Assembly (NCBI GenBank): GCA_035533095.1 | Contig: DATLUM010000060.1 | Location: forward strand, 1-33,022 | DNA: 33,022 nucleotides | Reading direction: 5' to 3' | Origin: Acidimicrobiales bacterium | GTDB lineage: Bacteria > Actinomycetota > Acidimicrobiia > Acidimicrobiales > Palsa-688 | Shown here: piece by piece, positions 16,334-32,609 of the stretch | How the letters are laid out: the number at the start of each line of letters is the position of its first letter | How positions within the stretch are numbered: position 1 is the first letter of the stretch | Made by a program: the position numbers and the translations under genes | The notes under the pieces: generated by a model | What the model saw: the letters and a program-made list of their open reading frames with translations, nothing else | Told to the model about the DNA's origin: nothing | The model's database searches: none

Positions 16334-16396
16334 GGCTTAGGTCGACCAGGGAGAATGCCGAATGAGAGAGCACCACTTCCATCGGAGGTTTTTCCC

Positions 16397-17725
16397 GTGT
16401 CACTCGAAGGCTCTCTCGAGACGATCGCACTGCCCGAAGTGCTCCACTTGCTCTCTGACACATCCAAGAGCGGCGAGCTCCTGGTGAGCGGCGACCGAGG
16501 GGACGGTCGGTTGTGGTTCGACGCCGGCCGCCTGAGCGGTTTCGACGTGCACCGCTGCTCGGACCCCGCCGACGCGCTGTTCGAGCTCTTGCGGGCATCG
16601 AGCGGAAGGTTCTCCTTCGACGCCGGCATGTCCCCTCCGGAGTCCGCCAACGGCGTCGGGGAGGACGAGAACGGCGCGGACGTCCGTCCTGTCCTCGAGG
16701 TGGCCCAGGCGCGCCTGGAGGAGTGGTCAGGAATCGTCGCGGTGGTCCCGTCTCTGCAGCACAAGGCGTCCCTTTCGCCGGAAGCTCCTCGCGAGAGCGT
16801 CGAGATCTCGGCGGAGCAGTGGTCGCTGGTGGTCACGATCGGTGAAGGCCGCACCGTCGGGGATGTCCTCGACCGCGCTGGTCTACCGGAGTTCGAGGGC
16901 TGCCGCTCGCTGAAGACGCTCGTCGAGGACGGGCTCGTGGCCGTGTCCGAGCCGGACGAGCTGCCCGTCGTCGCGGAGGACCTGCCGGTCGAGGCTGAGG
17001 ACCTGTCCGTGGTGAACGAGCCCGAGCCCGTCGACGAGCCGGAGGCAGTATCCGCGGTGGAGCCACAGTCTCTGTCTGATCTCGAATTCGGGGAAGTTCC
17101 TGAAGCCCCGGCTGCGGTCGTCGAAGAGGAATCTTCTAGCCTCGTCGTCAACGGCGGCGCCTTCGACGGGCACGACTTCGTCTTCAAGACCCCCGCCCAG
17201 CTGTTGGAGGACAGCTACGAGCCGCAGCCCGTGCCGTACCCCGAGCCCCCCTCCAACGAGAACGGCGACCACGGGGTATTCGATGTGGAGTCCGACGACG
17301 GGTCGATGACCTCGCGCGCCGCTCTCGAGGCGCTGCTGGCCGAGATCCCCGGCGACGAGGACGGCGAAGGCGCTGCGGAATTCGGCGGCGACGTCCAAGA
17401 GCACGATGGTTTGGCCGACCGGGGCCCCTGGACGTCCCAGGAGCTCGCCAGCTTCGACCATGAGGGCGGCTGGCACGACGACCAGCCTGCCGGCGCCGCT
17501 GAGCATGAGGAGCCCGAGTACGACTTCTCGAGCGTCGAAGACGTGGAGCCGTCGGCGGCTGCAGCTGCGTCTGACTTCCACTTCGAGGCGGCATCCGAGG
17601 GTGACTCCCAGCAGCCCGCCGAGCTCGAGGCGACAGACGAGTCGGAGGAGGAGCTGGAAGAGCCCCAGCCCGAGCCGGTGAACCGGGGTCTCCTGCTCAA
17701 GTTCCTGTCGTCGGTCCGTTCGTAG
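16397..17725 (+). CDS. DUF4388 (PATAN-type) domain protein, first gene of the pilus cluster
   Basis: 442 residues from GTG 16397, chosen because GGAGG lies 8 bases upstream and the family N-terminus starts here (SLEGSLETIALPEVLHLLSD); an ATG at 16355 would add 14 residues without a binding site. Residues 1-80 are the DUF4388 domain (SGELLVSGDRGDGRLWFDAG). About residues 135-195 look like a winged-helix segment (WSLVVTIGEGRTVGDVLDRAG). The remaining 240 residues are very acidic, Glu/Asp/Pro-rich and probably disordered, but the last 13 (NRGLLLKFLSSVR) form a short hydrophobic-basic peptide. DUF4388 proteins occur with gliding, pili and two-component systems; the role here is unknown. It ends 13 bases before pilB and is probably co-transcribed with it. 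Confidence 0.8.
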   Translation: MSLEGSLETIALPEVLHLLSDTSKSGELLVSGDRGDGRLWFDAGRLSGFDVHRCSDPADALFELLRASSGRFSFDAGMSPPESANGVGEDENGADVRPVLEVAQARLEEWSGIVAVVPSLQHKASLSPEAPRESVEISAEQWSLVVTIGEGRTVGDVLDRAGLPEFEGCRSLKTLVEDGLVAVSEPDELPVVAEDLPVEAEDLSVVNEPEPVDEPEAVSAVEPQSLSDLEFGEVPEAPAAVVEEESSSLVVNGGAFDGHDFVFKTPAQLLEDSYEPQPVPYPEPPSNENGDHGVFDVESDDGSMTSRAALEALLAEIPGDEDGEGAAEFGGDVQEHDGLADRGPWTSQELASFDHEGGWHDDQPAGAAEHEEPEYDFSSVEDVEPSAAAAASDFHFEAASEGDSQQPAELEATDESEEELEEPQPEPVNRGLLLKFLSSVRS

Positions 17726-17738
17726 GAGCGGCCCACCC

Positions 17739-19466
17739 GTGACGATGTCGGCCCCTGCACTCGGGGCGGAGCCAGCCGCCCCGACCGACGACGAGCTACT
17801 CGGGTCGCTCCTCGTCGCCGCAGGCCTGCTCACGCAGGAGGTCTGCGAAAAGGCCCTCGCGTGCCGGCAGGAGCGAGGCCAGGATCTCGCCCGGGTCCTC
17901 ATAGACGACAACCTCGTCTCCGAGACCGATCTCGTCGCCACTCTCGCCAGGCACCTCCGGCTGGAGTTCGTCGACCTGTCGGAGTACCCGATCGACGCTG
18001 CCGCCGCTCGCCTCATCAGCGACTCGATGGCGAGGCGTTACCTGGCTCTGCCGATCGGGTGGTACGAGGGTCGCCTTATCGTCGCGATGGCGGATCCGTC
18101 GAACGTGTTCGCGGTCGACGACATTCGGACCGTCACCGGGGCGGAGATCAGAATCGCCGTCGCCACCGGCGGGTCGGTGGTAGCCGCAATCGGCCGCTTC
18201 CACCGCGTCGACAGCGAGGCCGAGGACATCAGCGCCGAAGCCGCGAGCTCCTTCGAGGGCGAGGTGGACCTCTCGCGTGTCCGCGAGATCACGGAGGACT
18301 CGCCGATCGTCAAGCTGGTCAACCTTCTGGTCTCCCAGGCGATCTCCGACCGCGCGTCGGATATCCACATCGAACCGGGTGAGGACGACGTCCGGGTGCG
18401 CTACCGCATCGACGGCGTCCTGCACGAGGTGATGCGGCCGCCCAAGCGCATCCAGTCGGGGATCATCAGTCGCCTGAAGGTCATGGCCGACATCAACATC
18501 GCCGAGCGGCGGATTCCGCAGGACGGCCGGATCACGACGATGATCAATGGTCGCCACGTCGACCTGCGCGTGGCCACGCTTCCCACCGTGCACGGCGAGA
18601 AGGTCGTCATGCGGATCCTTGACAAGTCCACGGCCCTGCTGAAGCTGTCGGATCTCGGGTTCCTGCCCGACAACATGGCCCGCTACGAGGAGTCCTACCG
18701 CAAGCCTTACGGGACCATCCTCGTCACCGGACCGACGGGCTCGGGCAAGTCGACCACCCTGTACGCGACCCTGAACATCCTCAACGACGAGAGCAAGAAC
18801 GTGATCACGGTCGAGGACCCGGTCGAGTACCAGCTGCCGGGAATCAACCAGGTGCAGGTCAACTCCAAGGCCGGCATGACCTTCGCTGCCGCGTTGCGGA
18901 GCATCCTGCGGTCCGACCCGGACATTGTGCTCGTCGGCGAGATCCGGGACCGGGAGACCGCTGTCATCGCGATCGAGGCGGCCCTTACCGGCCACCTGGT
19001 GCTCTCGACCCTCCACACCAACGACGCCGCGACCACCCCCTCACGGCTCGTCGAGATGGGAGTCGAACCCTTTCTCGTCGGCAGCGCGATCGACTGCGTT
19101 GTCGCCCAGCGTCTCGCCCGGCGCCTCTGCGAGAAGTGCAAGAAAGCATTCCGGGCCGAGCCGACCGACATGGTCGCCCTAGGTTGGGACGTCGAGCGCC
19201 TCGGTGAGGTCAACCGATCGCACGAGATCTTCAAGGCCCACGGTTGCGGTGCCTGCGGCGGGACCGGTTACTACGGCCGGCTTGCCATCCATGAGGTCCT
19301 CCAGGTCACGGAGGAGGTCGAGCGACTCATCGTCGAGCGCGGCCACTCCGACGAGATCCGCAAGCTGGCGATAGGTCAGGGGATGCTTACCCTGCGTCAG
19401 GCCGGGCTCCAGCAGGTCAACGCAGGAGTCACCTCGGTCGAAGAGATCCTCCGCGTCGTGGCCTAG
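17739..19466 (+). CDS. pilB: Type IV pilus assembly ATPase PilB (GspE family)
   Basis: 575 residues from GTG 17739 with TAGGAG about 10 bases upstream; ATG 17745 is less well placed. It powers pilus extension at the inner face of the membrane, acting on PilC. N-terminal MshEN domain at about residues 17-150: ELLGSLLVAAGLLTQEVCEK and a second copy, DLARVLIDDNLVSETDLVAT. ATPase core: Walker A GPTGSGKSTT at 331-340, the Asp box DPVEYQLPGINQVQVN, Walker B DIVLVGEIRDRETA and the His box LSTLHTNDAA. Zinc-binding tetracysteine Cys464, Cys467, Cys503, Cys506 (CEKCKKAF and CGACGGTGYYGR). All features are typical of PilB rather than PilT. Confidence 0.96.
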   Translation: MTMSAPALGAEPAAPTDDELLGSLLVAAGLLTQEVCEKALACRQERGQDLARVLIDDNLVSETDLVATLARHLRLEFVDLSEYPIDAAAARLISDSMARRYLALPIGWYEGRLIVAMADPSNVFAVDDIRTVTGAEIRIAVATGGSVVAAIGRFHRVDSEAEDISAEAASSFEGEVDLSRVREITEDSPIVKLVNLLVSQAISDRASDIHIEPGEDDVRVRYRIDGVLHEVMRPPKRIQSGIISRLKVMADINIAERRIPQDGRITTMINGRHVDLRVATLPTVHGEKVVMRILDKSTALLKLSDLGFLPDNMARYEESYRKPYGTILVTGPTGSGKSTTLYATLNILNDESKNVITVEDPVEYQLPGINQVQVNSKAGMTFAAALRSILRSDPDIVLVGEIRDRETAVIAIEAALTGHLVLSTLHTNDAATTPSRLVEMGVEPFLVGSAIDCVVAQRLARRLCEKCKKAFRAEPTDMVALGWDVERLGEVNRSHEIFKAHGCGACGGTGYYGRLAIHEVLQVTEEVERLIVERGHSDEIRKLAIGQGMLTLRQAGLQQVNAGVTSVEEILRVVA

Positions 19467-19517: not shown

Positions 19518-21077
19518 ATGATCGCCGCATCACGCGTGGTGGGGGAGTTCCTCGTATCCCGCAAAGTTCTGTCCCGTGATGCCCTCGAGGAGTCCCTCGT
19601 AAAGGAAGCCGAGACGGGCATACCCCTGACCAAGATCCTTTCGTCGGAAGGTTTGGTCGGTGAACGTGACCTGATCGCCGCCATCGGCGATCACCTCGGG
19701 GTGCCCGTGTGGGACCCCGACCGGGACCCCATCCCTTCCGTCGTCGCCGGCATGCTTCCGCTCGCTCTGTGCCAGAGGCTCAGGGCGGTCGCCGTGGGTA
19801 TGAGCAACACCGTCCTCCGCGTGGCGATGGAGGATCCCAGCAACCAGGGTGCGATCGACCAGATCAACAAGGAGACGGGCTGGACCGTACAGCCGCTACT
19901 CGCTGCCTCTTCCGACATCAGCCTGGCGATCGAGGTCCTGTACAACGTCGACGATGCCACCACCCCGGTATCCAATGTCGACGAAGAGCCGGGTGTCGCG
20001 ACCGAGCTGCATCTCAACCAGCTGCTCGCCGAGATGGTGGAAGTAGGCGCCTCCGACCTACACCTGAGCGCGGGCCTTCCTCCGTGCATCCGGATCGACG
20101 GTGCGCTCCGGCCGATGGAGGACCACGAGGTTCTCACACCGTCGGAGACCCGCCGCCTGGTCTACGGCGTACTCGCCCAACGTCAACGGGAGAAGTTCGA
20201 AGCCGAGCTCGAACTGGACACCTCGCACTCTGTCCCCAATGTCGGCCGCTTCCGTCTCAACGTGTTCGTCCAGCGTGACTCGGTGGGTGCGGTCCTGCGT
20301 GCCATCCCGTTCAAGATCGTCCCGCTCGACAAGCTGGGCATCCCGCAGGTCGTGGCCGACCTGGCGAAACTCCCCCGGGGCCTCGTCCTTGTGTGCGGCC
20401 CAACCGGCTCAGGCAAGTCGACCACCCTCGCTTCCGTGGTCGACATCGTGAACTCGACCCGCCCGGAGCACATCATGACGGTCGAGGACCCGATCGAGTT
20501 CGTGCACTCCCACAAGCGCTGCGTCGTCAACCAGCGTGAGGTGGGTGAGGACACCAAGTCCTTCGCCGCCGCGTTGAAGCACGTCCTGCGCCAGGACCCA
20601 GACGTGATCCTCGTCGGTGAAATGCGCGACCTCGAGACGATCTCCACTGCTCTGACCGCAGCCGAGACCGGCCACCTCGTGTTCGGCACGCTCCACACCC
20701 AGGACGCCCCGCAGTCGATAGACCGTGTCATCGACGTGTTCCCCGCCCACCAGCAGCAGCAGATACGCGTGCAGCTGGCGTCCGCCCTGCAGGCGGTCGT
20801 CTGCCAGCAGCTGCTGCCGAAACTGGGCGGTCGAGGACGAGCGGTATCCGCAGAAGTCCTCATCGCCACCCCGGCCGTGCGCAACATGATCCGCGAAGGC
20901 AAGGTCCACCAGATCTACAGCGCCATGCAGGGCGGTGGGAAGTTCGGCATGCAGACGATGGACCAGTCACTGGCCGATCTAGTGCGCAACTCCAAAGTCT
21001 CGCTCGAGGTGGCGCTCGAGCGTTGCCACCACGAGGACGAGCTCCGCCGGCTCGTTACTGGAGCGGGGGCGAACTGA
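19518..21077 (+). CDS. pilT: PilT-family retraction ATPase with an extra N-terminal MshEN-type domain
   Basis: 519 residues from ATG 19518, with GAAGGGA about 6 bases upstream. The C-terminal 360 residues are a full PilT: ELHLNQLLAEMVEVGASDLH, Walker A GPTGSGKSTT from residue 294, Walker B DVILVGEMRDLETIS, the His box FGTLHTQDAPQSIDRVID, and the PilT-specific tail AVRNMIREGKVHQIYSAMQ with GMQTMDQSL. It lacks the tetracysteine of PilB. Unlike ordinary PilT (about 340-370 residues), residues 1-140 resemble the PilB N-terminal domain (VVGEFLVSRKVLSRDALEES and GIPLTKILSSEGLVGERDLI), followed by a linker. Retraction of pili is the expected role. It overlaps pilC by one base (TGATG). Confidence 0.93.
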   Translation: MIAASRVVGEFLVSRKVLSRDALEESLVKEAETGIPLTKILSSEGLVGERDLIAAIGDHLGVPVWDPDRDPIPSVVAGMLPLALCQRLRAVAVGMSNTVLRVAMEDPSNQGAIDQINKETGWTVQPLLAASSDISLAIEVLYNVDDATTPVSNVDEEPGVATELHLNQLLAEMVEVGASDLHLSAGLPPCIRIDGALRPMEDHEVLTPSETRRLVYGVLAQRQREKFEAELELDTSHSVPNVGRFRLNVFVQRDSVGAVLRAIPFKIVPLDKLGIPQVVADLAKLPRGLVLVCGPTGSGKSTTLASVVDIVNSTRPEHIMTVEDPIEFVHSHKRCVVNQREVGEDTKSFAAALKHVLRQDPDVILVGEMRDLETISTALTAAETGHLVFGTLHTQDAPQSIDRVIDVFPAHQQQQIRVQLASALQAVVCQQLLPKLGGRGRAVSAEVLIATPAVRNMIREGKVHQIYSAMQGGGKFGMQTMDQSLADLVRNSKVSLEVALERCHHEDELRRLVTGAGAN

Positions 21078-25301: not shown

Positions 25302-26798
25302 ATGGGTTTGAAGGCGAGCGGCAGGCGGCTGCGCGCTGGCGTAGCAACCGTATTGATCCTTTCGGCGGCGGGACTGGTCAGCCCCGCCGTAGCCGGCGCG
25401 TCTTCAGGTTCCCAGCCCGGCGCTCAACCCACTTCCGGTTCCGGTACCCCGGCGTCGCCGGTCCTCCCCTCTGTCCCCGCGCTTCCGGCGGTCCCGCTGG
25501 ATGTCACAGATGGTTTCCCGGTGCAGAGCCTCTACCAATTGGCCATCTCGTTGAGCTCCTCGGCAGGGATGAGCACACAACTTCGCTCGCAGATCGCGGC
25601 CACGCAGAGGGCTCTGGACACCTCTACGGTGGCAGCGCGCCAGGCGAGCCAAGCAGCCGCTGATGCAGACGCCCGCCAAGCAGCCGCAGCGGCGCAAGCC
25701 AAAGCTGCCGGCGCCGCCTACGCCGGCTTGAAAGGTGCTCTCAAACAGGCCGTGGTCTTCATGTACACGGCGGGCCCGACCTACGTCACTGTCAACCCGC
25801 AAGCGGGAGATCGGCTCGCGTACGCCGCCGACTACGCGGACACGGCGCTGACACCAGGCGGCCTGCTCGCAACTCGCCGTTACGACGCGTCGGTACGTGC
25901 CAAGGCCCTCGCCGAGGCGAGCGCGGCGCAGCGCGAGGCGGACCAGCAGGCCAAAGCCGCATCGGACGCTCTCGCGGCCGAGCGCGCGGCCCAGGCGTCC
26001 CTCGAAGCCGAGTTGGCCGCCGTGGACCTGCAGTCGGGCCCGGAGTTGCTGGCGGAGCACACGACCCTCGCCGGGCAGGCCGGTCAGGAACTGGTCAACG
26101 GCACATCGCTCGAGTTCACCCCGCCTGCGCCGCTGCCGCCGCCCCTTCCCACCACGGTCGTCGCGATCGGATGGGTCTTCTCTGAGCTGGGCAAGCCCTA
26201 CCTGTGGGGCGGCACCGGGCCGGATGAGTTCGATTGCTCAGGCCTCACGCAATACGCCTGGCACCAGGCGGGAGTCGACATTCCACGTGTAGCAGCCGAC
26301 CAGGACTCCTGGACGGTACCCGTACCGCTCTCGCAGCTGATGCCTGGCGACCTCGTGTTCTTCGGCCACAGCGACATCCACCACGTCGGGATGTACATCG
26401 GCGGCGGCCTGATGATCAACGCACCGCACACCGGCGACGTGATCCGGGTGAGCTCCATCTGGTGGTCTGATCTCGCAGGGTTCGGGCGAGTCCACGACCC
26501 GAACACGCCGATCCCGGTCCATTTGCCGCCCACGGCGTCGAAGCCCGCCGCCCCCTCCGTGGTCCCGGTGGCCGGGCTCGTGCCGTCGCAGACTCAGCCT
26601 CCGCCAGGCTGGCAGCCGCAGCCGGGTTCGACCACTCCGATCCCTGTCACCGATCCCGCCGGTTCGCCGAGCGCGGAGAGCACCACCACTACCACGATCG
26701 CCGGCGCTGCCCCCCCGAGCACAACGTCGCTTCCACCTGTGAGCACCACGGTCACCGGAGGCACGGCGACCACAGTCCCGGGGGCTTCCGGCAGCTGA
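25302..26798 (+). CDS. Secreted NlpC/P60 peptidoglycan hydrolase with coiled-coil N-terminus
   Basis: 498 residues from ATG 25302, preferred over ATG 25284 because GAGAGGG lies about 9 bases upstream of it. Signal peptide: GVATVLILSAAGLVSPAVAG. Residues about 80-250 are Ala/Gln-rich helical coiled coil, as in RipA/CwlO-type endopeptidases. Residues about 285-400 are the NlpC/P60 domain: YLWGGTGPDEFDCSGLTQYA with nucleophile Cys312, DIHHVGMYIGGG with His361, and APHTGD with His376 as third residue, all intact. The last 100 residues are Pro/Thr/Ser-rich. It should cut peptide stems in the cell wall outside the cell. The position between pnt and pilA, with a pilus-type promoter, suggests wall remodelling for pilus passage; that is inference. 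Confidence 0.92.
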   Translation: MGLKASGRRLRAGVATVLILSAAGLVSPAVAGASSGSQPGAQPTSGSGTPASPVLPSVPALPAVPLDVTDGFPVQSLYQLAISLSSSAGMSTQLRSQIAATQRALDTSTVAARQASQAAADADARQAAAAAQAKAAGAAYAGLKGALKQAVVFMYTAGPTYVTVNPQAGDRLAYAADYADTALTPGGLLATRRYDASVRAKALAEASAAQREADQQAKAASDALAAERAAQASLEAELAAVDLQSGPELLAEHTTLAGQAGQELVNGTSLEFTPPAPLPPPLPTTVVAIGWVFSELGKPYLWGGTGPDEFDCSGLTQYAWHQAGVDIPRVAADQDSWTVPVPLSQLMPGDLVFFGHSDIHHVGMYIGGGLMINAPHTGDVIRVSSIWWSDLAGFGRVHDPNTPIPVHLPPTASKPAAPSVVPVAGLVPSQTQPPPGWQPQPGSTTPIPVTDPAGSPSAESTTTTTIAGAAPPSTTSLPPVSTTVTGGTATTVPGASGS

Positions 26799-26827
26799 AC
26801 AGGTTCGGGCGCAAAACGCGAAACCCC

Positions 26828-26854
26828 TCAGGTCGGCTTTCTGGACGCCGATGT
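26828..26854 (+). promoter_or_regulatory. Candidate sigma-28/WhiG-type promoter of pilA
   Basis: TCAG (26828-26831), 15-base spacer, GCCGATGT (26847-26854). The predicted start near 26861 lies just before the riboswitch aptamer, so the whole aptamer would be in the transcript. This agreement of two independently found elements supports both. Confidence 0.6.
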
Positions 26855-26867
26855 TGTGGAGGCGAGC

Positions 26868-26960
26868 AGCGCTCGAGAAAAAGGCAAAGCCGTCGAGAGG
26901 CGGTGGCGCAAAGCCACGGGACCGGACGTCAGATGCGACGAGGGTCAGCCGGGCTGCCTG
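26868..26960 (+). promoter_or_regulatory. GEMM-I (cyclic-di-GMP-I class) riboswitch in the pilA leader
   Basis: The conserved GEMM-I blocks appear in order: AAGGCAAAG (26881-26889), a hairpin CCGTC-GAGA-GGCGG (26890-26903) capped by a GNRA tetraloop, the hallmark GGCGCAAAGCCACGGG (26905-26920), a second hairpin made of GACC/GGTC (26920-26923 with 26943-26946) and CGTC/GACG (26927-26930 with 26937-26940), and the 3' block AGCCGGGCTGCC (26947-26958). A GNRA loop with a second long hairpin fits the loop-receptor architecture of the class. It ends 84 bases before the pilA ATG. The G before CAAA, which I align with the ligand-contacting guanine of the Vibrio Vc2 aptamer, is present, favouring c-di-GMP over cGAMP; that alignment is from memory. 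Outer limits are approximate. Confidence 0.9.
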
Positions 26961-26973
26961 GAGCACTCAGCCC
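26951..26973 (+). promoter_or_regulatory. Possible expression-platform hairpin competing with the aptamer 3' strand
   Basis: GGGCTG (26951-26956) can pair with CAGCCC (26968-26973). The left arm is also part of the conserved aptamer 3' block, so the two folds exclude each other. AGTTTCGG follows, a very short T run. If this hairpin stops transcription, ligand binding would favour pilA expression; this is inference. Confidence 0.45.
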
Positions 26974-27044
26974 AGTTTCGGGGTGGGGCAAAGGGGATCG
27001 ATAGCAGGGCTCGCTGTCATGAACCGAACCGAAAGGCAAACCTA

Positions 27045-27605
27045 ATGCTGGAATCCATCAAGCAGCGCCTCGGCCGTGACGACGAGCAGGGCTTCACCCT
27101 CATCGAACTCATGGTCGTCGTGCTGATCATCGCCATCCTCTTGGCGATTGCCATTCCCACCTTCCTGGGCGCCCGTAACTCGGCCAACGCCCGCGCCGCT
27201 CAGTCAGACCTGCGCAACGCCCTCACGGCCGAGCAGACGGCATGGACCAATACCCAGACCTTCAGCAACGACACCACCACAACCGGCATGGCCGGAATTG
27301 AAGGATCGCTGACCTGGACGACCGGCGCACCGGCCTCGGGCAACGAGGTCTCGGTGACCGTCGGCGACGTCGACAGCTCTGGCAACTACCAGGCTGTGGC
27401 GCTGGAGGCCACCGGCAAGGACCACAACTGCTACACCGTGCTTCAGAGCAACGACCCTGCCAACTCCTTCACCGCCTACAACGTTGCCACGGGAACCTGC
27501 AGCGCCGCTGGGACGGTGCCGACGATCAGCGCTACTGCGCCGACCATCAACGCCACCGGGACCGCCTCTGCTAACCCGGGCACGGGCTACTACAAGAGCT
27601 GGTAA
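27045..27605 (+). CDS. pilA: Type IV major pilin-like protein PilA
   Basis: 186 residues from ATG 27045, with GAAAGG 8 bases upstream. The class III leader of 16 residues ends in Gly before the cut (DDEQG then FTLIELMVVVLIIAILL), with Glu at mature position 5 as in classical pilins. The mature protein (about 170 residues) has the long N-terminal helix followed by a beta-rich head with NNYQ-like GNYQAVALEATGKDHNCYTV, and two Cys (HNCYT and GTCSAA) that could form the C-terminal disulfide loop. The C-terminus is Thr/Ala/Ser-rich and ends YYKSW. It is preceded by its own promoter and riboswitch and followed by a strong terminator, so it is a separately controlled, probably abundant transcript: the likely major pilin. 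Confidence 0.93.
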   Translation: MLESIKQRLGRDDEQGFTLIELMVVVLIIAILLAIAIPTFLGARNSANARAAQSDLRNALTAEQTAWTNTQTFSNDTTTTGMAGIEGSLTWTTGAPASGNEVSVTVGDVDSSGNYQAVALEATGKDHNCYTVLQSNDPANSFTAYNVATGTCSAAGTVPTISATAPTINATGTASANPGTGYYKSW

Positions 27606-27654
27606 CCAGCCCTAACAACAACCTTGCCCTGTAGCACTAGGGCATAACTAGAGA

Positions 27655-27685
27655 AAGGAGCCCCGCCCTTGAGGCGGGGCTCCTT
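27655..27685 (+). terminator. Terminator hairpin after pilA
   Basis: AAGGAGCCCCGCC (27655-27667) is a perfect 13-bp inverted repeat with GGCGGGGCTCCTT (27673-27685); loop CTTGA. A weaker stem TGCCCT/AGGGCA (27625-27644) lies upstream. There is no T run beyond the final TT, but the stem is the strongest in the pilus region and isolates the pilA transcript. Confidence 0.85.
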
Positions 27686-27729
27686 CGCGTTCAGCGACCG
27701 AGAAACGGGGTCGAGACCCACGACCGCCC

Positions 27730-27757
27730 TCAATTTCCTCGCTGATTTCGCCGATAG
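27730..27757 (+). promoter_or_regulatory. Candidate sigma-28/WhiG-type promoter giving a leaderless transcript of the membrane protein gene
   Basis: TCAA (27730-27733), 16-base spacer, GCCGATAG (27750-27757). Seven bases past the -10 is the A of ATG 27764, so the mRNA would begin at the start codon. No ribosome binding site precedes this ATG, consistent with a leaderless mRNA. Confidence 0.6.
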
Positions 27758-27763
27758 TCCGTC

Positions 27764-29146
27764 ATGCCCCTCGCACCGGCGCGTTCGTACCTTTCCCGCA
27801 CCGCCGAGATCTCGGCCCCGACCGATAGGCAATCGCTGCGCTGGCATGGATGGCGCTTCGCAGCAGTTGTTTACGTCTTGGTCGTTGGGCTCTGTTCCTT
27901 CGCAACATTCGCGCTTCCCGATCTCCTCGGCTACCACCAGTGGCTGGCCCTCGGAGATGGCAAGTGGACGATCGAGTCGGCGCAGTGGGTCTCGTGGGGC
28001 GGGATCGGGTCGGTCTATTCCGCGAATCCGCAGTTCCTTCCCCTTCCTGGCTTTCTGATCATCCTTGCTCCCGCGGTCGCCCTGGGAAATCATCTTGGCT
28101 TGGTCACGGGTTACCCATACGCACTCCGATACCCCTCAATGCTCCTTGTCGCGGGTCCTGTATTCTTCCTGACCGGATCGACAGCGATTCTCGGAGTCGA
28201 CTACCTGGCGGACACGCTGCAGACATCGCGGTTCCGTCGCAGGGTTATCGTTGCTTCGACTGGCCTGCTTGTCGTGATCCCGACGACCGTGTGGGCGGGG
28301 CATCCGGAGGATCTCGCGGGCATCGCTCTAGCGTGCGCTTCATTGGCTGCGCTGCTTCGCAGGCGGTATCTGGGAGCTGCGCTCCTGCTGGCGTTCGCTG
28401 TCATGATGCAGACCTGGGCAGGCCTGCTAATCCCGATCCTGATAGCGGCGACGCCCGCCGGGAAGCGTGTTAGAGCACTCATCTGGTCTTCACTGCTACC
28501 GGGTCTGACCGCTGCGTTGCTGCTGGTACTTGACTTCCATGATGCCTTTCGGTCCCTCATAGTCCAGCCAATGCAAGGGAACGGTCAGCACCTTCCGTGG
28601 TGGGGCCTTGCCCACAAACTGACGATCATGCAGAGCGGCGTTCCCGTGGTAGTCCGTGTCGGATCGGCCTCGAGGAGCCTTGCTGTAGTAGCAGCCTTCG
28701 TCGCAGCCATAATCGTCTGGAGGAAGCCCACCGCGCAGACGATCCTGGCTGCGGCCGCAACCGTTCTTCTTGCCCGAGGTGCATCCGAGACCCAGTTCTG
28801 GTCGTATTACCTGGCACCGGCTGCAGTGCTGATGGCGGTAGCTTCAGCGACGTCGGGGGTGGAGCGGCGACGGTGGACATTGGGCGGGGGGTCGGCGCTC
28901 GTGGCCTACTGCTGCGCTGCGGGCGGGTACGACGCCTACTCGTTGCCCGGGGCGACGACCGTGCTGATGCCGCCGTTCCTCGCACTCGGAGTCCTGATTG
29001 CATGCGGTGCCGGGGTTGTGATTGCCACCCGATCCCGTACGCCCGCGTCCGATCCGCGGTTGTTGAGCCAGTCGCAACTCGCCCCCGACGATTTCAACGG
29101 GCCGACTAGCTGTCCAGAAGCCGCTCTGGAACCGTCACTTCTCTAG
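27764..29146 (+). CDS. Polytopic membrane protein, possibly a lipid-linked-sugar glycosyltransferase
   Basis: 460 residues from ATG 27764. About ten hydrophobic segments, with a short cytoplasmic N-terminus and a polar C-terminal tail of about 40 residues. VVIPTTVWAGHPEDLAGIAL, followed by LACASLAALLRRRYLGAALL, resembles the GT87/DUF2029-type polyprenyl-phosphate mannosyltransferases, in which an acidic residue in an external loop is catalytic; the resemblance is weak and no other signature is seen. Its own promoter and place between pilA and the prepilin peptidase gene would suit a pilin-glycosylation or cell-surface role, but this is inference. Codon use is slightly less GC-biased than in the housekeeping genes. 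Confidence 0.75.
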   Translation: MPLAPARSYLSRTAEISAPTDRQSLRWHGWRFAAVVYVLVVGLCSFATFALPDLLGYHQWLALGDGKWTIESAQWVSWGGIGSVYSANPQFLPLPGFLIILAPAVALGNHLGLVTGYPYALRYPSMLLVAGPVFFLTGSTAILGVDYLADTLQTSRFRRRVIVASTGLLVVIPTTVWAGHPEDLAGIALACASLAALLRRRYLGAALLLAFAVMMQTWAGLLIPILIAATPAGKRVRALIWSSLLPGLTAALLLVLDFHDAFRSLIVQPMQGNGQHLPWWGLAHKLTIMQSGVPVVVRVGSASRSLAVVAAFVAAIIVWRKPTAQTILAAAATVLLARGASETQFWSYYLAPAAVLMAVASATSGVERRRWTLGGGSALVAYCCAAGGYDAYSLPGATTVLMPPFLALGVLIACGAGVVIATRSRTPASDPRLLSQSQLAPDDFNGPTSCPEAALEPSLL

Positions 29147-30010: not shown

Positions 30011-30030
30011 CGAAGGTCAGAACCAAAGAG

Positions 30031-30057
30031 TAAAGCCGTAGCCGAGCGCGCCGATAT
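30031..30057 (+). promoter_or_regulatory. Candidate sigma-28/WhiG-type promoter of the pilMN-pilO operon
   Basis: TAAA (30031-30034), 15-base spacer, GCCGATAT (30050-30057). This is the closest match in the window to TAAA-N15-GCCGATAA: full -35 and 7 of 8 in the -10. Predicted start near 30064, leaving about 36 bases of leader that contain AGGAGG at 30090-30095 before GTG 30100. Confidence 0.7.
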
Positions 30058-30099
30058 CTCACTCGTGAACAGCGAGCACCTGAGCGCGTAGGAGGATCG

Positions 30100-32531: not shown

Positions 32532-32609
32532 GCGGAAGGCAGCCAGTGTCCTCCGAGGCAGTGGAGGAATCCGGTCTTGCCGGTAGAAGTCCACTAAACG
32601 CGACGTTCC

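Follow-up and report, generated by a model that had tools for sequence, protein, structure and literature searches.

What does c-di-GMP control at a pilin gene of an actinobacterium, and in which direction? The question is raised by a 33,022-nt contig of an Acidimicrobiales bacterium (hereafter the window; it is contig C60 in an assembly of 3.44 Mb and 142 contigs, 96.8% complete), in which the initial annotation had placed a GEMM-I riboswitch at 26868–26960, ahead of a pilin gene. Both parts of this assignment hold. The gene downstream encodes a type IV pilin, and the single above-threshold Rfam 15 match in the whole window (cmscan) is a full-length hit to RF03167 (64.5 bits against a cut-off of 59, E 3.1e-13). 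The model of the canonical c-di-GMP-I riboswitch, RF01051, matches at 26873–26961 with 67.4 bits, well above its cut-off of 35, and the limits given earlier proved correct to within a few bases (Table 1). Searches of the assembly with both models found only this copy, which ends about 80 nt upstream of the pilA start codon.

Table 1. Features of the pilA leader and the surrounding pilus cluster (coordinates in the window).
Feature	Position	Strand	Basis or remark
pilB-like ATPase	17739..19466	+	MshEN domain, binding motif not conserved
pilT-like ATPase	19518..21077	+	MshEN domain, binding motif not conserved
WhiG/flagellar-type promoter (predicted)	26827..26854	+	-35 CTCAGG (26827-26832), -10 GCCGATGT (26847-26854); matrix score 14.8
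Element E, GGCGAGC, with which the mRNA is predicted to begin; 5' side of P0 and of its rival, hairpin H0	26861..26867	+	Conserved
P1 5' strand, GCUCGAG, also pairs with E (H0)	26871..26877	+	RNAalifold; P1 overlap from sequence
c-di-GMP-I (GEMM-I) riboswitch aptamer	26874..26962	+	Rfam matches (limits of RF03167)
Element D, GCUCGCU, 3' strand of P0	27009..27015	+	29 nt before start codon
Probable Shine-Dalgarno sequence, AAAGG	27032..27036	+	8 nt before ATG
pilA, type IV pilin, 186 aa	27045..27605	+	Pfam N_methyl, E 1.1e-9
WhiG-type promoter-like site before ORF 27764	27728..27763	+	Score 18.2, rank 2
WhiG-type promoter-like site before pilM (30100)	30029..30064	+	Score 13.1, rank 5
WhiG-type promoter-like site before minor-pilin-like ORF at contig end	32608..32643	+	Score 18.8, rank 1

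The best Rfam match by E-value, RF03167, describes the c-di-GMP-I-GGC variant, a name that we take to stand for G20–G47–C92. Its P2 and P3 sequences are similar to those of the window aptamer, but at position 47 the model consensus has G (CGCGAAGC, CGCGAA) where the window has A (CGCAAAGCC, CGCAAA), a mismatch in the alignment. Because of this A, and because the canonical model scores higher, the GGC variant was ruled out. In the numbering of PMC3764141 and PMC4744006, the ligand-contacting letters fall on G20 (26883), A47 (26910), and C92 (26957) of the Rfam alignment, and A47 is the base stacked between both guanines of the c-di-GMP ligand (PMC3764141). The same three letters, a three-helix aptamer, and a GNRA loop, which in the window is the GAGA tetraloop that caps P2, as noted initially, are found in Vc2 of Vibrio cholerae, a member of RF01051; the window copy differs from Vc2 in lying inside an outer 5'-end helix, behind a WhiG-type promoter, and on an actinobacterial pilin gene. 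GEMM-Ib riboswitches, which sense c-AMP-GMP (3',3'-cGAMP), have A20, whereas the G at this position of the window aptamer points to c-di-GMP; sensing of the alternative ligand was rejected on this letter. Two copies elsewhere, L043 (G040:C79:31011-31083) and L035 (G377:C2:4909-4983), have A at the expected G20, as in GEMM-Ib. The fold is common to the window aptamer and the Geobacter GEMM-Ib riboswitches (cited in PMC7266159). The aptamer upstream of pilA is therefore almost certainly a c-di-GMP-I riboswitch of the canonical class, for which ligand binding is predicted; as an aptamer it is an ordinary member of the known class I.

RF03167 matches occur in 12 of 32 genomes of the same family and in 46 of 397 genomes forming an even sample of the order, and RF01051 matches in 144 of 396 sampled genomes of the phylum. 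Since c-di-GMP-I riboswitches are this common in the phylum, the occurrence of one in an actinobacterium is unsurprising by itself. Among 101 copies read in their context, 21 were flagged as preceding a pilin-like gene, including one (G359) that has no pilin leader of the window kind and one (G038:C6) in front of a different prepilin-like ORF; a few additional copies precede pilins cut by contig ends. The comparison with related genomes suggested at the outset thus places the same element before pilin genes in at least 20 assemblies. The P2 and P3 pairs are kept in these relatives, several of them with compensatory changes on both sides, and G20 and A47 are present in all 21 pilin-linked copies scored (by regular expression). 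The remaining copies are mostly situated before CAP-type secreted proteins, glycosidases, and other exported proteins. In one genome, G038, three tandem pilin genes each have their own c-di-GMP-I riboswitch (L044, G038:C51:60735-62484).

A promoter-like sequence upstream of the aptamer had also been described. It is present but of the flagellar/WhiG type; a sigma-70 scan upstream of the aptamer found none. The reported consensus of the type consists of a -35 box TAAA and a -10 box GCCGATAA spaced by about 15 nt (PMC8325347), from which the window boxes, TCAG and GCCGATGT, depart by two mismatches each. Pilin copies are preceded by a recurring motif, CTCAAG followed by GGCGATA or GCCGATA, with the CGAT 22–24 nt past the first C and about 21–26 nt 5' of the aptamer. 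With a matrix trained on 16 pilA leaders, all from other families and with sites chosen by this motif, the site in the window leader (26826) ranks third in a scan of both strands, and the same site is found in a relative's locus (L155). Four of the five best matches in the window precede genes of the pilus cluster. These include pilM (PilM_2, E 3.7e-48) and the minor-pilin-like ORF at the contig end, which contains DEGFTLVEMLIALMIF; with the further promoter-like sites at 32608, 27728, and 30029, WhiG may control the pilus cluster as a regulon.

The association extends to riboswitches outside the training set of the matrix. In the order, 26 of 76 non-pilin riboswitches (34%) have a site scoring at least 12 between -80 and -15, a score reached by none of the reverse complements, none of 1520 dinucleotide shuffles, and none of the regions from -150 to -85. 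In other orders of the phylum, a WhiG-type promoter lies upstream of 21 of the 30 best-scoring riboswitch copies, about 12 of which come from one family; in the corresponding controls, such a site was absent from all 30 reverse complements and all 29 regions farther upstream and occurred in 0.2% of the shuffles. One copy in another order, far from the order studied here, also precedes a pilin-like gene (L173), and its WhiG-type promoter scores 14.1. We consider it very probable that a WhiG-type promoter precedes the window aptamer, with a predicted start site.

The WhiG of this genome (TIGR02479, 271.6 bits; best match of known structure WhiG 6pfv, E 6e-95) is encoded next to rpsB and tsf, and an RsiG-like anti-sigma factor is also present (6pfj, E 1.8e-13). 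The RsiG motif E(X)3S(X)2R(X)3[Q/H](X)3D is complete in its first copy (ETGLSYLRRIIQGRLD), and the second copy has F at the Q/H place. RsiG homologues were found in 28 of the 31 genomes searched in the order, the family included, with or without riboswitches (all except G213, G041, and G033). In other orders only 2 of the 15 tested matched the RsiG query, while a FliA/WhiG sigma factor was found in nearly all. This distribution makes control of the WhiG-type promoter by c-di-GMP plausible in the order studied here. Known RsiG–WhiG systems are OFF at high c-di-GMP (PMC8325347, PMC11139211), and in Rubrobacter the pair reportedly governs the type IV pili (PMC8325347). As in Rubrobacter, WhiG and RsiG homologues are present in the window genome, together with predicted flagellar-type promoters in the pilus cluster; riboswitches are not mentioned in the work on Rubrobacter, whereas in the window both layers would act on the same transcript. 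Since WhiG is held by a c-di-GMP-dependent protein in the relatives studied, a single signal may act on pilus production at two steps.

The signal itself is likely to be made, as the genome has 19 GGDEF matches. A third c-di-GMP layer, through the PilB and PilT ATPases, was considered and rejected: both have a Pfam MshEN domain, but the RLGxx...LxxxLxxQ motif of MshEN c-di-GMP receptors (PMC5013675) finds no match in them. A DUF4388 protein (16355–17725) is encoded directly 5' of pilB.

The predicted RNA start coincides with a short element, E (GCGAGC, 26862–26867), which is kept in 23 riboswitch-bearing pilin leaders and is nearly invariant. It is complementary to element D (GCUCGC, 27009–27014), so that the helix predicted from the two, P0, would enclose the aptamer. 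Across 21 leaders, in registers picked for best pairing and among related sequences, 91.8% of the cells of P0 are paired, and three of its seven pairs have changes on both sides, with compensatory changes in G152 and G222. E has a second potential partner. In the RNAalifold consensus it forms a local hairpin, H0, with the 5' strand of P1, and H0 excludes P1; the minimum-energy prediction for the window leader also has H0 and not P0, and the stability of this leader is not unusual (z -1.05).

Several pilA leaders of the family keep the promoter and E/D with no recognisable aptamer between them. The two elements form a short hairpin in G025, G026, and G008 (UGCGGGC-AGG-GCUCGCA) and surround a degenerate leader in G024 and G001. 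Retention of E and D in such leaders suggests an independent role for the helix, into which the aptamer would have been inserted or from which it would have been lost; in the window, an older hairpin appears to surround the aptamer. We regard formation of P0 as likely.

On this basis we propose a three-layer leader for pilA, made of the WhiG-type promoter, an exchange of E between two partners, and an ON switch acting through P0, and give the proposal as a whole an even chance. Transcription would start from the WhiG-type promoter and, if the genome behaves like Rubrobacter and Streptomyces, WhiG would be held back at high signal by RsiG carrying c-di-GMP. In the nascent RNA, E would pair either with the 5' strand of P1, giving H0 and no ligand pocket, or with D, giving P0; binding of c-di-GMP would stabilise P1, exclude H0, and make E available for P0. 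Finally, P0 would enclose the folded leader with the ribosome-binding site outside and the 5' end tied up, so that translation, mRNA stability, or both would be expected to rise. If both the ON switch and the hold of RsiG on WhiG at high c-di-GMP are true, pilA would be expressed at intermediate levels of the signal only, i.e., the combined layers would act as a band-pass. The sequences show the aptamer, its conservation ahead of pilin genes, and the promoter motif with its statistical link to riboswitches, and P0 is supported by comparison. WhiG use, ligand binding, switch direction, and band-pass behaviour we infer, and likewise the direct control of pilin synthesis by the second messenger that the initial annotation had foreseen.

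The direction of the switch is less secure than the aptamer, the promoter, and P0. We chose ON through the outer hairpin, at slightly less than an even chance, mainly because E and D persist in the aptamer-less pilA leaders; expression thus seems compatible with P0 on its own, and we took P0 as permissive. Simple occlusion of the Shine-Dalgarno sequence in pilin leaders was unsupported by constrained folding, which predicted no change in opening of this sequence or of the start codon upon P1 formation (mean change 0.01, a rough figure, as the wrong P1 closing pair, CC, UC, or AC, was used in many CAP-type and a few pilin copies). The output of the switch may therefore be mRNA stability or another form of ribosome access.

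The same aptamer and promoter could also make an OFF switch, in which c-di-GMP lowers pilin translation and the two layers form a double lock that allows pili at low c-di-GMP only. The known RsiG–WhiG systems work in this sense, and in CAP-type leaders with P1 formed the Shine-Dalgarno sequence became less open in 12 of 33 cases and more open in 2 of 33, again in the same rough folding. Many non-pilin copies of the order thus resemble OFF switches. In some of them the Shine-Dalgarno sequence even lies within the 3' strand of P1; CAP-type loci such as L021, L024, and L030 have it in or just past that strand, and copies of this kind probably turn off secreted CAP-domain proteins by a simple switch. 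In pilin leaders, however, P1 does not overlap the Shine-Dalgarno sequence and no closing is predicted by modelling, and several relatives have aptamer-less leaders in which the P0 hairpin alone is kept, so that we hold an OFF switch on pilA to be unlikely.

Another reading of the E/D complementarity sees in it no RNA helix, but a DNA feature conserved close to the promoter, or two conserved elements that are complementary by coincidence. Near-invariance of E leaves most E/D pairs uninformative, and the covariation depends on four cells. The support from shuffling is modest, as the pairing of E and D was matched by 7 of 500 shuffles, and by 14–40 of 500 once the aptamer-less leaders are added; shuffles made for each leader combine to a Fisher statistic of 142 with 42 degrees of freedom, for leaders that are related to one another and in registers picked for best pairing. 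The position of E at the predicted RNA start and the steady distance of D, 25–40 nt before the start codon across leaders, speak for a function in RNA, as does the direct hairpin of the two elements in some aptamer-less leaders. When the partner of E is slid along the leader, pairing collapses to 10–45%. A DNA feature or a coincidence thus seems improbable to us. Least probable of all is a transcriptional switch, in which a Rho-dependent or T-less terminator between aptamer and pilA would end or pass transcription: the leader past the aptamer is long (82–96 nt in most copies) and has a recurring GC-rich hairpin, but a search of the plus strand of 26780–27780 gave no intrinsic terminator and the aligned leaders have no U run past this hairpin.

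In the open-licence literature searched, we found no riboswitch linked to WhiG promoters, nor one combined with both such a promoter and an outer helix, and for the c-di-GMP-II pilin system of Clostridioides difficile we know of no WhiG layer. Pilin genes under a c-di-GMP riboswitch are themselves already known from that species, where the riboswitch of the pilin operon belongs to class II (PMC11477304); the signal and the kind of target gene are common to both systems, whereas the aptamer class is unrelated and the phylum different. The layered arrangement of aptamer, WhiG-type promoter, and outer helix seems to be new. That riboswitches are coupled to WhiG promoters across much of the phylum, that pilA is under band-pass control, and that its aptamer sits in the loop of a 5'-end hairpin that predates it is, taken together, a tentative picture, and one that may well not hold in full.

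If it is true, the same messenger would, in lineages with RsiG, gate one transcript twice, first at initiation and then in its leader RNA, and that transcript would be subject to two unrelated kinds of c-di-GMP receptor, an RNA aptamer and a sigma/anti-sigma pair. It would allow a clear test of whether cells respond to one second messenger within a range of levels or beyond a threshold. The promoter association also lists genes of uncultured actinobacteria that are probable targets of WhiG, and the aptamer-less leaders that retain the outer hairpin could serve as natural controls in studying the insertion of a riboswitch into, or its loss from, an existing leader.
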